DNA from: Gracilimonas sediminicola
GTDB taxonomy: Bacteria > Bacteroidota > Rhodothermia > Balneolales > Balneolaceae
Reading direction: 5' to 3'
Assembly: GCF_024320785.1 (NCBI RefSeq)
Contig: NZ_JANDBC010000002.1
Coordinates: forward strand, 124,001-188,000
DNA length: 64,000 bases
The position numbers and the translations under genes are program-made. Shown here one piece after another: positions 3,151 through 58,982 of this stretch (position 1 is the stretch's first letter; every line of letters begins with the position of its first letter). The notes beneath the pieces were generated by a model. The model searched no databases and had not been told where the DNA came from. It was given only the letters and a program-made list of their open reading frames with translations.

Positions 3151-3264
3151 CAACCTTTCAGCGTCCGCAGGTCCTGAAAGCGTTGCGGGGATACGACCGT
3201 GTAGATATCGGATTGCTTAATTTACCGCCGAACGCTCCAAGGTCCTGCGGACGCTTGGAGGTTC
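3151..3264. repeat. Second inverted REP pair (35-bp units)
   Basis: Units at 3151-3185 and 3230-3264 are inverted copies sharing the core agcgtccgcagg, each with imperfect dyad symmetry (aacct...ccgcagg...agcgtt). About 44 bp separate them. The second unit ends about 10 bp from the stop codon of the kinase gene. The unit differs in sequence from the neighbouring 2863-3070 pair, so this 440-bp gap between convergent genes holds two unrelated repeat families side by side. Confidence 0.7.
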
Positions 3265-23173: not shown

Positions 23174-23366
23174 AAATTTTTTTTGTAAGGAATCCCTTTT
23201 TAGTTGCTCTAACATGTATCACACATAAACAACTTTTGGGGGAAATATTTTAAATGAGTACATCTGAAATTTGTCTATCACATATATTGAACATATATTC
23301 AAATTGTTTGTTCAGAGGGTGACATGTTCTGTCATTCAGGCTTTGTAAGTTTGTTCCCGGGAAAAA

Positions 23367-23394
23367 TTCCAAGCACCAAATTTCAAATTACAAA
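23367..23394. repeat. Left heptamer array beside the four-helix-bundle gene
   Basis: Four consecutive 7-bp units, ttccaag, caccaaa, tttcaaa and ttacaaa, end 4 bp before the likely ATG of the four-helix-bundle gene. Read on the other strand they are of the form cttggaa or tttgnaa, matching the downstream array at 23786-23834 in inverted orientation. Confidence 0.6.
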
Positions 23395-23398
23395 ATTG

Positions 23399-23767
23399 AT
23401 GGGTACAGCCAAGACATATGATTTACATCAACGGACATATAGCTTTGCTCATTCGATAAGAGATTTTGCTCGTAATGTTCCAAAAGATATCTGCAATATT
23501 GAAGATCTTAAGCAATTAGTAAGAAGTTCCGGTTCAGTTGGGGCTAATTACATTGAAGCTAATGAATCTCTGAGTGATAAAGACTTTATTTACAGAATTA
23601 AGATTTGCAGAAAAGAAGCAAAAGAGTCAGCCTATTGGCTAAGATTAATACATTTGTTTAATGATGCAGAACTTGAGCATAGAAGAAAGAAACTTACAGT
23701 AGAGGCTTCAGAGTTTGTAAAAATATTCTCGACAATCATTCAAAACCGAAGAACAAAATCATCTTAA
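23399..23767 (+). CDS. Four-helix-bundle protein (23S rRNA intervening-sequence protein family)
   Basis: A 122-residue protein starting MGTAKTYDLHQRTYSFAHSI; this ATG (23399) fits the family, whereas an upstream ATG at 23324 would add 25 residues translated from repeat DNA. The motif LVRSSGSVGANYIEANES followed by FIYRIKICRKEAKESAYWL is diagnostic of the IVP/S23 four-helix-bundle family, also related to Avd accessory proteins. Function is not settled; members occur inside 23S rRNA insertions and as stand-alone genes. Here it stands alone between kynU and recA, bracketed by inverted arrays of 7-bp repeats. Its codons are more A+T-rich than those of recA next door, which supports acquisition. 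Confidence 0.85.
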   Translation: MGTAKTYDLHQRTYSFAHSIRDFARNVPKDICNIEDLKQLVRSSGSVGANYIEANESLSDKDFIYRIKICRKEAKESAYWLRLIHLFNDAELEHRRKKLTVEASEFVKIFSTIIQNRRTKSS

Positions 23768-23785
23768 CGAAACGTATATTTTAAA

Positions 23786-23834
23786 ACTTGGAACTTGAGA
23801 TTTGGAATTTGGAGCTTGGGATTTGAAACTTGAA
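23786..23834. repeat. Right heptamer array beside the four-helix-bundle gene
   Basis: Seven back-to-back 7-bp units: acttgga, acttgag, atttgga, atttgga, gcttggg, atttgaa, acttgaa. The common form is RYTTGRR. It starts 19 bp after the stop codon of the gene and is in inverted orientation to the array before the start. The strict 7-bp spacing is seen directly. Confidence 0.75.
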
Positions 23835-50525: not shown

Positions 50526-50567
50526 AGTCTCTTAATTAATTCGATTCAAGATAAGGAGTTTGGTGGT

Positions 50568-50670
50568 TAAGTGATAAGGTCATGAAATGATTAAGTGATT
50601 AGGCGATAAAGTGATATAGGTTGATGGATCTACTTACTCATCAATTCATCAATATTTACTTTTCACTTAA
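50568..50670. repeat. A+T-rich ttaagtgat repeat stretch
   Basis: Degenerate repeats of the form ttaagtgat/gcgataaagtgat from 50568, with an inverted counterpart (tttacttttcacttaa) at the right end. The inverted arm supplies the Lys-stop codons of the aldehyde dehydrogenase gene. Related sequences lie at 56235-56277 and 56814-56946. Confidence 0.5.
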
Positions 50671-52024
50671 CGTACACTGTTTTGGTGTTTACGAATTCGT
50701 GGATGCCATATAATCCTAATTCTCGTCCATAGCCGGAATTTTTAATACCACCAAATGGCAGGCGGGGATCGGATTTAACAAGTTCATTTACAAAGCAGCA
50801 ACCGGCTTCCAGTTTTGTGGCTGCAATTTCTTCGGCATGTTTTACATCCTGAGAATATACCGAAGCACCTAAGCCATAATTTGTGTCATTGGCTACCTGA
50901 ATGGCTTCTTCTTCATCCTTCACTTTAATGATACTTGCCACCGGACCGAACAACTCCTCCGAATAGGCCGGCATTCCGGGTTTTACATTCTTAAGGATAG
51001 TTACAGGATAAAAAGCTCCATCCCCTTCCGGTTTTTCTCCTCCCATAACCAGTTCAGCTCCATTCTTTATACTTTCGTTAACCTGTTCATGAAGCTGATC
51101 TCTGAGATCAACCCTTGCCTGTGGACCAACATCGGTGTTATCATCAAATGGATTTCCCACTTTTCTCGCTTCCATAAGCGCAGTGAATTCTGCCAGAAAT
51201 TCATCATACACATCTTCCACTACCACAAAGCGTTTGGCAGCAATGCAACTTTGCCCGCTGTTCAGCAGCCTTGAGTTTACGCAGGTCTCAGCGCTGGCTT
51301 TAATATCTGCATCTTTAAGAATGAGGGATGGATCACTGCCACCCAATTCAAGTACGGTTTTCTTGAGCATTTCTCCGGCCTGGGCTGCCACCGCCTTTCC
51401 TGCCCGAGTGCTTCCGGTAAGGGTTACGGCAGCAATACCTTGATGCTGAATAACCTCCTTCATGTTGGATTTATCACGCACAATCGTTCGAAATAAATCC
51501 TTGGGAATTCCAGCTTCATGGATGAGTTCTTCAATCTTTAAGGCACATCCGGTTGTATTCTCAGAATGTTTAAGAACAGCACCATTTCCGGCCATGAGTG
51601 CAGGGGCCGCAAACCGAAATAACTGCCAGAAGGGGAAATTCCACGGCATGATGGCCAAAACCACTCCCAACGGATTGAAGGTAACATAGCTTTTGGAAGC
51701 ATCTGTTTGAACCGGGTCATCCTTCAAAAATTCCCCGGCGTGTTCAGCATAATATTCACAAACCCAGGCACATTTCTCGGCCTCTCCGATTCCCTGCTCC
51801 AGAGGCTTCCCCATCTCTTCTGCCATCAGCCTACCCAACTTCTCCTTCTGCTCCCTCAGAATTCCGGCAATTTCATTGAGGGAAGATCCTCTTTCTTCAA
51901 AACCGGTTTTTTTCCAGTCAGCCTGAGCTGTATTCGCTTTTTGAATAATCTCATCCACTTCATCAAAGCCCATCTCATCATATTCTTTGATGACTTTTCC
52001 GGTGGCAGGATTTATAGTTTTCAT
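50663..52024 (-). CDS. NAD(P)-dependent succinate-semialdehyde-type dehydrogenase (YneI/Sad-like)
   Basis: A 453-residue aldehyde dehydrogenase. Catalytic Cys260 in NSGQSCIAAKR and general base Glu226 in VLELGGSDP are intact, with the Rossmann motif LTGSTRAGK at 202-210 and MPWNFPFWQ at 126-134. The short form and the SDPS pattern match the YneI/Sad group, which oxidises succinate semialdehyde. A class III aminotransferase lies 175 bp upstream on the same strand, so the pair could form a GABA-type shunt. Substrate assignment is inferred. Confidence 0.88.
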   Translation of the reverse strand: MKTINPATGKVIKEYDEMGFDEVDEIIQKANTAQADWKKTGFEERGSSLNEIAGILREQKEKLGRLMAEEMGKPLEQGIGEAEKCAWVCEYYAEHAGEFLKDDPVQTDASKSYVTFNPLGVVLAIMPWNFPFWQLFRFAAPALMAGNGAVLKHSENTTGCALKIEELIHEAGIPKDLFRTIVRDKSNMKEVIQHQGIAAVTLTGSTRAGKAVAAQAGEMLKKTVLELGGSDPSLILKDADIKASAETCVNSRLLNSGQSCIAAKRFVVVEDVYDEFLAEFTALMEARKVGNPFDDNTDVGPQARVDLRDQLHEQVNESIKNGAELVMGGEKPEGDGAFYPVTILKNVKPGMPAYSEELFGPVASIIKVKDEEEAIQVANDTNYGLGASVYSQDVKHAEEIAATKLEAGCCFVNELVKSDPRLPFGGIKNSGYGRELGLYGIHEFVNTKTVYVK

Positions 52025-56750: not shown

Positions 56751-56813
56751 GGTAATATAGATTTGGTGAGGGTTAACAATCTTTTATCACGTTCAACGAA
56801 GAAAATAGTTACA

Positions 56814-56946
56814 GGGTGTGGTGATGTGGTGATTTTTTGTATTCATCTCGCAACGAATGCCCGAGATCTTCATGCTTTAAAAGAAAATCGGATTCCACCT
56901 GCATAGTTGAAACTTAGACCCACTTCATCACTCATCACCCTATCAC
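56814..56946. repeat. Inverted ggtgatgtggtgat repeats downstream of dnaG
   Basis: Left arm ggtgtggtgatgtggtgat at 56814-56832 and right arm with atcactcatcaccctatcac (about 56927-56946) can pair imperfectly around about 95 bp. It fills the gap between dnaG and the NTF2-like gene. The right arm ends next to the dnaG stop codon. Same theme as the repeats at 50.6 and 56.2 kb. Confidence 0.5.
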
Positions 56947-56948
56947 TC

Positions 56949-58982
56949 TCACTCCTCCCCCTTCATCTTGTACTGAAAAACCTTGTCGTTAACCTGGTGA
57001 TCAATATCAGAATCCGGATCGGGGTATAAGTCATCAGGGTCGGTTGTTTCCCGGCGGGTAAGTTTTGATTTAATATCTTTCTGTCGCTCCATCAGTTCCA
57101 GCTTTTCCTCTCCGTTAGCGGCAGCGATTTTATCAGCCAGCTCATTTTGTTTATGCCGGTAAAAGTTTATCTGTGACGCTCTGATTGAGCTTTTCGCAGT
57201 TTTATAAGGATTCTTATCCTTCTCGTACTTCAGTCCTACTTTCTCTTCATGGCGATCACTGGCCGTATGCTGCTCCAAAAGAACATCTCCCACCAAACGA
57301 GGGAAAGGGTCATCCATACCGGAATAGGTATTTACAGAAATCTCTTTTTCTTCTTTGTATCGCTCAATGATATCCTCATAAAACGTCCGAAGTTCATCAT
57401 CCTCAAAGAGCTTGGAATTCGTAAACGAACAAATGTATTCCACCATACTGCGTCCATAAGTAATCATCAGACGAATGAGCTCTTTCTCAAAGTGAGGTTT
57501 TTTCCTGGAGCGAGGTTGAGGCCTTCCTGAAAAAGGCTCGCCGGATGGATGCGGAGGTTCATCCATTGGCCCACCGTCCATTCCCTGATCCTGGGTTACA
57601 CGATCATCCTGAAAACGCTGTCGGGCTTCTTCCCTTCGCTGTGAGCGCTTTTCTTCCCAGCGCTTGTCGTTCATCACCCGCTCCAGCTGCTCGTATAAAT
57701 CGCTCTCCTTCACCTTCTGGAACTTCTGCATCTTCTGATGCAGGTACTGCACGTACACTTGTCGCTGAATGGAATCTTTGATGTTGGCAATCGACTCCAG
57801 TATCTCAGCGATCACCTTGGGTATTTCAGTAGGCTTTTCGAGTCGACCTTCTTCACCGGCCTTCAGCAACAGAAAATCTACAAAATCGCCGGATTCCTCT
57901 TTCTTCAGCTCTTCAAATGATTCCTTGCCGAACTGCTTCACAAAAGAATCAGGGTCCTGATCTTCAGGCAGCTCCAGCAGTTGTACTTCCATCCCCTCGG
58001 CCAGGGCGATATTGATACCCCGCTTCATCGCCGTTTGCCCCGCATCATCGGAGTCATAAATCATGACAATGCGTTCACCATAGCGATGCAAAATCTTCAT
58101 TTGTCCGGATGTGAGCGACGTTCCACTGCTGGCCACCACATTCTTGATGCCATGCTCATGAAGGGTGATTACATCCGTGTAGCCTTCCACCAGAATCACT
58201 TCTTTATTCTTGCGGATCTCATTCCTGGCAAAATTGACCCCGTAAACAACCTCGCTCTTGTTATAGACTTTGGTTTGGGATGAGTTGATGTATTTCGCCG
58301 TTTTTTCATTGCCCAGAACCCGTCCCGCAAAGGCAATTACTTTTCCGGTAGGGTTGAATATGGGAAACATCAGTCTTCCACGAAAAGTATCGTAAAAGCC
58401 ACTGCCGCGGTTACTTGGCTTAATCAGGTCTGCTTCCACTAAGTAATTCTCGTCAATGCCCGCATTCTTTGCTGCTTTCCATAGTTCCTCTCCTCCCGAT
58501 GGAGAAAAACCCAGCCCGAACTTTTTATACACTTCCCGGTTATATCCCCGGTTTTCAAGGTACTTGATAGCCTTTTCAGCTTCCGGGTTCTCAATCAGGT
58601 TTCGATAATAAAACACACCCGCGAACTTGAGTGCATGGTAAATACCTTCCCGAAGCTGGGTATTCTCGCTGGGCTCTTCGTTATCTTCTTCGGGGATGAA
58701 GACTCCGTACCGCTCGGCGAGCTGACGAACGGCCTCATTGAAGCCAACCCCTTCCTGATCCATCACAAACTTAAATACATCCCCTGATTCACCACAGCCA
58801 AAGCATTTAAAAATCTCAAGGCGTGGAGTGACGTTAAAGGAGGGTGTTTTTTCATCATGATAAGGACAGAGCCCCACAAATCCACTGCCCGACCGCTTCA
58901 GCTTTACATAGTCTGAAACCACCTCCACGATATCTGCGGCTGCCCGTACTTCTTCTTTTTTCTCGTCACTTATCATAGTCAA
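56949..58982 (-). CDS. dnaG: DNA primase DnaG
   Basis: Makes RNA primers for replication. The 677 residues include the CHC2 zinc finger (Cys39, His42, Cys60, Cys63 in LCPYHDEKTPSF and KCFGCGESGD), the RNA polymerase core with FRGRLMFPIFNPTGKVIAFAGR, and the TOPRIM part VILVEGYTDVITLHEHG and MIYDSDDAGQTA. A Pro/Gly/Arg-rich linker (about 445-495) leads to a divergent helicase-binding end. An ATG two codons in could be the true start. Not in the usual rpsU-dnaG-rpoD arrangement: neither partner gene is near. Confidence 0.96.
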   Translation of the reverse strand: MTMISDEKKEEVRAAADIVEVVSDYVKLKRSGSGFVGLCPYHDEKTPSFNVTPRLEIFKCFGCGESGDVFKFVMDQEGVGFNEAVRQLAERYGVFIPEEDNEEPSENTQLREGIYHALKFAGVFYYRNLIENPEAEKAIKYLENRGYNREVYKKFGLGFSPSGGEELWKAAKNAGIDENYLVEADLIKPSNRGSGFYDTFRGRLMFPIFNPTGKVIAFAGRVLGNEKTAKYINSSQTKVYNKSEVVYGVNFARNEIRKNKEVILVEGYTDVITLHEHGIKNVVASSGTSLTSGQMKILHRYGERIVMIYDSDDAGQTAMKRGINIALAEGMEVQLLELPEDQDPDSFVKQFGKESFEELKKEESGDFVDFLLLKAGEEGRLEKPTEIPKVIAEILESIANIKDSIQRQVYVQYLHQKMQKFQKVKESDLYEQLERVMNDKRWEEKRSQRREEARQRFQDDRVTQDQGMDGGPMDEPPHPSGEPFSGRPQPRSRKKPHFEKELIRLMITYGRSMVEYICSFTNSKLFEDDELRTFYEDIIERYKEEKEISVNTYSGMDDPFPRLVGDVLLEQHTASDRHEEKVGLKYEKDKNPYKTAKSSIRASQINFYRHKQNELADKIAAANGEEKLELMERQKDIKSKLTRRETTDPDDLYPDPDSDIDHQVNDKVFQYKMKGEE

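Follow-up and report, generated by a model that had tools for sequence, protein, structure and literature searches.

Genes of the IVP family between mirror arrays of a changing 7-bp word: a candidate hairpin element in Gracilimonas sediminicola and other bacteria

Genes of the IVP or 'four helix bundle protein' family are bracketed by mirror-image arrays of a tandem 7-bp word. This design is general in the family, with the word differing from locus to locus. One such gene lies in the window, the stretch of 64,000 nucleotides of Gracilimonas sediminicola DNA analysed here. The gene and its mirror arrays very probably form one evolutionary unit, and the unit is probably mobile or selfish. On balance, we read the left arm, gene and right arm in the window as a single copy of a selfish hairpin element that is widespread. 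That the element moves or is maintained through single-stranded DNA (ssDNA) in transformation is a more tentative proposal. The family is large and has PDB structures, and no role is known for it. The proposed element would link three loose ends, namely the origin of the intervening sequences (IVS) of 23S rRNA, the function of the IVP proteins and the unexplained excess of heptameric repeats in many bacterial genomes.

The window gene (23399..23767, plus strand, 122 aa) runs by direct reading of the sequence from an ATG at 23399 to a stop codon at 23765-23767. Its product belongs to the family PF05635/TIGR02436 by HMM scores above the curated cut-offs (47.4 bits, cut-off 33.8; 66.1 bits, cut-off 24). 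A Pfam search finds only 23S_rRNA_IVP in this protein and no DDE, HUH, tyrosine or serine recombinase, nuclease, integrase or reverse transcriptase (RT) domain. Its net charge is +6; IVP proteins are mostly basic, with a mean of +2.8. Single-sequence structure prediction was poor (mean pLDDT 55.7) and was not used.

The left arm (23367..23394, minus strand) consists of the heptamers TTTGTAA TTTGAAA TTTGGTG CTTGGAA. On the plus strand these read TTCCAAG CACCAAA TTTCAAA TTACAAA and are followed by ATTG and then the ATG. Its inverted partner, the right arm (23785..23833, plus strand), reads AACTTGG AACTTGA GATTTGG AATTTGG AGCTTGG GATTTGA AACTTGA. TRF reports the right array at periods 7, 14 and 21, and it is the sole period-7 segment of the window at a score of at least 13, a level at which the shuffled window has none. 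By a repeat search the arms (23364-23396 and 23778-23810) are an inverted pair, 73% complementary over 33 nt with a spacer of 381 nt, and these inverted repeats place the gene in a loop. The original prediction had four minus-strand heptamers ending 4 bp before the start and an exact 7-bp register across 49 bp downstream, just as the sequence reads. Its seven plus-strand heptamers are also there, but they begin 17 nt after the stop and not the 19 bp given.

As had been stated, the gene and its arrays sit between the end of kynU (23173) and recA (23887), so that this copy is intergenic and not within a 23S rRNA gene. Upstream of the element lies a promoter-like motif of the recA leader, GTAAGGA-N14-GCTCTWAC (23185..23213, plus strand); the element is positioned between this motif and recA itself. 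The impression that it was inserted here agrees with the polymorphism of the site between close relatives. The IVP gene is absent from the site in G007, the closest relative compared (recA protein 100% identical), and an IVP relative is present in G003. The site offers no clean empty junction, and the recA leader beside the element is unalignable between G. sediminicola (G000) and G007.

The G. sediminicola genome holds 12 copies of the family. Many are flanked by 7-bp, in some cases 8-bp, mirror arrays whose word is different each time (for example TAGGTGT, GTCATTG, TTGGATA and GTTGCGG). The heptamer YTTGRAA is the word of the window copy and not a motif of the family, since each copy has its own. 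Among 98 Balneolales loci, lag-7 self-match in the 80 nt 3' of the gene is 0.389, against 0.279 when shuffled. The period-7 signal, with harmonics at 14 and 21, stays within ~100 nt of the genes and is gone at +100-200. The flanks of many family genes, named at the outset as the place to look for period-7 inverted arrays, do carry them. A strong array stands on at least one side at 166 of 191 loci from many phyla, and the downstream array score is at least 9 at 115 of the 191, compared with 0.7% of shuffled flanks.

Arm matching was examined at 239 family loci (Bacteroidota, Proteobacteria, Planctomycetes, Acidobacteria, Chloroflexi, cyanobacteria, Methanophagales and others), most of which have period-7 arrays with mutually matching arms. 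Matching arms are found in Gammaproteobacteria, cyanobacterial plasmids, Planctomycetes, Acidobacteria, Chloroflexi and one Methanophagales archaeon. The reverse complement of the left flank scores a mean of 17.9 against its own right flank and 9.1 against those of other loci. At 170 of the 239 loci own-arm complementarity exceeds the cross-locus 95th percentile, and at 102 it exceeds the 99th. Each copy has its own heptamer, or sometimes octamer, inside a loose 3'-arm grammar, HHH-Y-T-R-A, whose information is 2.07 bits versus 1.59 (sd 0.02) for column-permuted words. The 3' arm is poor in G. Arrays of stop codons were rejected as the cause of the period, stop density being only slightly above that of column-permuted arrays.

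Phages and plasmids were considered as vehicles and rejected, the family having 0 matches among 50,697 phage records and being found on 23 of 72,556 plasmids, mostly cyanobacterial. On one plasmid, pPg_01 of Pseudanabaena galeata (L359), an IVP element with long heptamer arms lies between cas6 and cas4. Placements of this kind may explain why the family is listed as CRISPR-linked (PMC10910872).

The arms could in principle be kept by selection on an RNA stem. The arms would then pair in the transcript, RNase III would cut the stem, the IVP protein would bind RNA and the unit would be immobile. The presence of the same arms in 23S IVS is consistent with this, as are the G-poor 3' arm and the operon-embedded copies of the broad set, which are co-directional with the upstream neighbour by 65:2 and with the downstream neighbour by 59:6. 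However, compensated stems should favour G-U over A-C among the mismatches between arms, and 192 G-U and 231 A-C are seen. Selection on an RNA stem was rejected on this count; the lack of a G-U excess argues for a process at the DNA level. Nor does the RNA-level reading account for hairpins that lack the gene and yet share words with gene-bearing copies (see below). The orientation bias itself also speaks against it. In Balneolales, the motif GTAAGG...CTCTTAC stands between the left arm and the start codon in many IVP copies. Copies with the motif are oriented 9 same to 16 opposite, whereas motif-free copies are 39:4 co-directional (p=3e-6). The bias is relaxed when the gene has its own promoter, which implies that it reflects a need for transcription. 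It appears that transcription of the IVP gene matters for the persistence of the gene. Altogether, an RNA-level origin of the arrays is unlikely.

The motif GTAAGGA-N14-GCTCTWAC has 21 exact and 25 one-mismatch sites in the G. sediminicola genome, versus 0 and 1 for a reversed-pattern control (the window site at 23185-23213 and 24 further ones are L431-L455). Across the Balneolaceae, the family in which it was examined, the exact form is found only in the genus Gracilimonas, with 17-26 sites in each of 8 genomes and 0 for the control. In G. sediminicola it precedes comEC, comM, radC, ssb, recF, recQ, recA and an integron integrase, three IS200/IS605 transposases, five RAYTs, a GIY-YIG nuclease and IVP genes. 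A further 26 sites sampled from sister genomes include 9 ahead of IVP, 5 of RAYT, 3 of integron integrase, 2 of RecQ, 1 of ComM and 1 of RecA genes. Some repair genes excepted, the genes downstream of the motif are competence functions and known handlers of ssDNA hairpins. Because of this gene content, the motif looks like the mark of an undescribed competence regulon of this genus. The joint membership of competence and ssDNA-hairpin genes is the main reason for proposing an ssDNA stage in natural transformation.

Word and protein lineage travel together. The same protein lineage with the same word occurs at different sites in three sets (L145/L152/L187, L151/L188 and L083/L373), the last pair coming from different phyla. 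GTGATTA-type words are found at two sites in Flavobacterium and in another Bacteroidetes genome, the word ATAACAAG is common to Galbibacter and Brumimicrobium copies, and CAGAATT to a Balneolales genome and a gammaproteobacterium. The DNA homology of homologous copies at different sites ends near the arms, which indicates that gene and arms behave as one unit. Among pairs that are not at the same site, word sharing rises from ~0.1-0.5% to 37% when protein similarity exceeds 0.7 (n=19). A strict code between word and protein was rejected, since the correlation is clear only for closely similar proteins (Spearman ~0.06 overall).

The words also change, and both arms change with them. At orthologous sites (65 pairs) the arms of one copy have a similarity of 0.60 to each other, compared with 0.38 between species, and in 25 pairs both arms have shifted jointly to a new word. 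Arrays of G. sediminicola and G007 differ by whole units (+14, +28, +42, -7 and -14, and +8 in one 8-mer array).

Many arrays have no gene at all. The census covered 400 kb of the G. sediminicola genome and 80-kb or 20-kb samples of other genomes. Within the 400 kb there are 24 period-7 arrays at a score of at least 12, compared with 0-3 at the control lags 5, 8, 10, 11 and 13, and most of the arrays sit away from any IVP family gene. In all, 26 gene-less arrays were collected here, many of them inverted pairs. The original prediction held that arrays occurring widely without the gene would refute the association. They do so in this genome, but with words shared with its own IVP copies; in other genomes they are nearly absent where the family is missing. 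Compared with the 12 IVP copies of their own genome, the words of the gene-less arrays reach a mean best score of 0.521, with 8 of the 26 above 0.6; random sets of 12 give 0.398 (sd 0.029) when taken from the genus and 0.372 (sd 0.017) from other genera. Period-7 arrays run at ~6 per Mb in genomes without the family, where 478 kb yielded 3, largely AT- or GC-rich, and reach 125 per Mb in multi-copy IVP genomes; they are missing from several genomes with a single copy and from one with four. The sharing of words and the near absence from family-free genomes fit non-autonomous derivatives. With 16 of 18 found at the matching position in G007, the gene-less arrays are not highly mobile.

Two gene-less arrays lie in the window. 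At 50558-50677 an inverted 8-bp array (GTGATTAA-like / TTTTCACTTAAC) stands between two genes and is a probable gene-less relative of the IVP element. At 56810-56965 the units of the inverted array are 7-8 bp (TGTGGTGATGTGGTGA ... CACTCATCACCCTATCAC) and the arms are ~80 nt apart. The window also contains, at 3152-3263, a member of a palindromic repeat family that is not heptameric (core GCGTCCGNAGGTCC). A hairpin similar to this GCGTCCGNAGGTCC-core family occupies in G007 the site of L010 (L263).

Could the arrays result from ordinary slippage, with 7-mers made by the polymerase and turned palindromic by template switching, around an IVP gene that is a tolerant bystander? The change of arrays in whole units between G. 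sediminicola and G007 would be expected, and among the long simple repeats of many bacterial genomes heptamers rank first in frequency (cited in PMC4692102 and PMC4679880). Against this, arrays at 166 of the 191 family loci have no counterpart around 10 co-regulated G. sediminicola genes, RAYT and IS200 included, where one marginal score was the only sign of them. Slippage alone would also not explain why family-free genomes nearly lack arrays, or why word and protein lineage move together. We consider it about as improbable as the RNA-level reading.

Close relatives differ by gain or loss of the IVP gene at fixed intergenic sites. The 'empty' partner sites are often not empty junctions; several hold a hairpin with a different word. 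At the single clean empty site (G004, L270) the junction has a 2-bp overlap and no target-site duplication. Among the loci compared, copies at different sites are never near-identical, the best pair having 82% DNA identity, and hence no recent jump is seen. Of the 'minimal mobile or selfish unit' suggested earlier, the association of the arrays with the family and the unity of gene and arms stand, mobility is a probable reading, and no acting enzyme was found. At one intergenic site, the IVP copies of G. sediminicola (L005) and G007 (L061) belong to different subfamilies and point in opposite directions. Where G007 has the IVP copy L065, two small genes are found in G. sediminicola between the same neighbours (L267, G000:C1:1114200-1116000); by eye only, the pair resembles a MazF/PemK-type toxin and its partner.

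This variation in gene presence between close relatives speaks against the possibility that IVP is an autoregulated host gene, whose arrays are operators for the encoded protein and whose gene-less arrays are other operators of the same regulon. Such a regulator would suit the sharing of words, within a genome, between gene copies and arrays without the gene, and the mostly basic protein. It does not suit the joint move of both arms to other words at orthologous sites, and an operator does not need a paired inverted layout around the gene. We regard it as very unlikely. Least probable, by a little, is a role of IVP like that of Avd, a distant relative, with an RT in trans copying an RNA form, for although one family member weakly matches the Avd model NF033474 (21.8 bits, under the cut-off of 80; E 1.8e-4) and structural homology between Avd and 2GSC has been stated (PMC10053308), the window protein has no listed match to NF033474, and an RT partner was rejected because RT (PF00078) occurs in 15/36 IVP-positive and 14/36 IVP-negative gammaproteobacterial genomes, without association.

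The hairpin element that we prefer is as follows. Its arms are inverted repeats at the two ends, each built from tandem units of a word of 7 bp or sometimes 8 bp, and either DNA strand can fold into a long hairpin with the IVP gene in the loop. The word drifts by gain and loss of whole units, both arms being kept matching by concerted evolution, most simply through DNA-level copying on the hairpin template. Copies that lose the gene would persist as short hairpins, with words in common with those that retain it. Some IVP genes of the host genus have their own promoter, of a regulon that also comprises genes for competence, recombination and single-strand transposition. The IVP protein, which is small, mostly basic and devoid of a catalytic domain, may bind the hairpin or array as ssDNA during natural transformation. 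Once bound, it might help uptake, keeping or integration of the element by means of borrowed enzymes. Copies landed in rRNA genes would be the 23S IVS that contain an ORF. Of all this, the architecture, its generality, the sharing of words, the concerted change and the membership of the regulon are shown, and the ssDNA stage, the binding of the array by the protein and the way of integration are proposed.

Taken as a whole, this may amount to a class of mobile element that has so far gone unrecognised and that spans many bacterial phyla as well as some archaea, although we put it forward with less than even confidence. Such a class would have mirror ends of a freely evolving 7-bp word and a non-enzymatic four-helix protein as its sole gene, would use an ssDNA hairpin in natural transformation, and would seed gene-less hairpins and the 23S IVS. 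Inverted arrays that stay matched while their sequence changes would make a testable system, with a tie to natural transformation and ssDNA recombination. The 23S IVS, the heptameric repeats and the IVP structures are each known separately. A literature search, largely outside subscription journals and without bioRxiv preprints, found no report that joins them and no link of IVP genes to heptamer arrays.

Among known systems, DNA transposons and insertion sequences with their MITEs resemble the IVP element in having gene-less copies that share ends, but they encode a transposase domain, which the window protein lacks. With REP/REPIN sequences and their RAYTs, too, a gene lies between inverted hairpins and many gene-less copies are found elsewhere in the genome, and in the host genus RAYTs share the promoter motif with IVP genes. 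However, IVP has no Y1/HUH domain, and REP/REPIN is a fixed palindrome whereas the ends of the IVP element are tandem words. Other palindromes, not heptamers, border the RAYT genes here; with no arrays in RAYT and IS200 flanks, the heptamers were rejected as REPs of these genes. Y1 transposases occur in 31/36 genomes with the IVP family and in 21/36 without it (p=0.017), but are not required, being absent from 5 genomes that have the family. Avd of the diversity-generating retroelements is likewise a small, helical, partly basic protein with distant sequence homology to IVP, but IVP has no genome-level link to RT.

By published descriptions, the heptameric repeats of Xanthomonas (GGGAATC), Nostoc (GGGGATT) and Beggiatoaceae (TAACTGA) are intergenic and have a 7-bp unit like the IVP arrays. 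The window arrays are of this kind, as tandem 7-bp units in an intergenic, inverted pair, and TAACTGA fits the HHH-Y-T-R-A grammar of IVP arms. Xanthomonas has 70-75 convergent inverted heptamer pairs per genome (PMC4692102), and X. campestris encodes the IVP family member XCC0516 (PDB 2gsc). Unlike in the reading proposed here, the published repeats have been taken as G-quadruplex or regulatory sites, and our literature search found no link of the Xanthomonas, Nostoc or Beggiatoaceae heptamers to an IVP gene. If the element is real, a large part of the heptameric repeats in bacterial genomes could be explained by its gene-less hairpins.

The 23S IVS of Leptospira and Coxiella, with their S23p/IVP ORF, have the same protein family as the window element and the same placement of the gene in an inverted-repeat loop. 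They differ in that the window copy, like nearly all others, has a protein gene on either side, and in that the arms of these copies are a general word array with turnover, of which gene-less copies exist. Excision by RNase III belongs to the 23S IVS and is not known for intergenic copies. Two IVP copies of our set lie inside LSU rRNA genes, on the Azospirillum lipoferum plasmid AZO_p2 (L361) and in a gammaproteobacterial assembly (L385). The former is a plasmid-borne 23S rRNA gene with an IVP-type intervening sequence, at a place where the plasmid table lists no features. The arms of these rRNA-located copies are heptamer arrays too (GACGGAT GACAGAG GACGGAG and its mirror; GACAGAA... and CTGTCTT...), and the Coxiella IVS is reported to have three GACAGAT heptamers before its ORF (PMC4990558). 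The same heptamer arms inside rRNA genes suggest a wider element, of which the ORF-containing IVS is just one placement.
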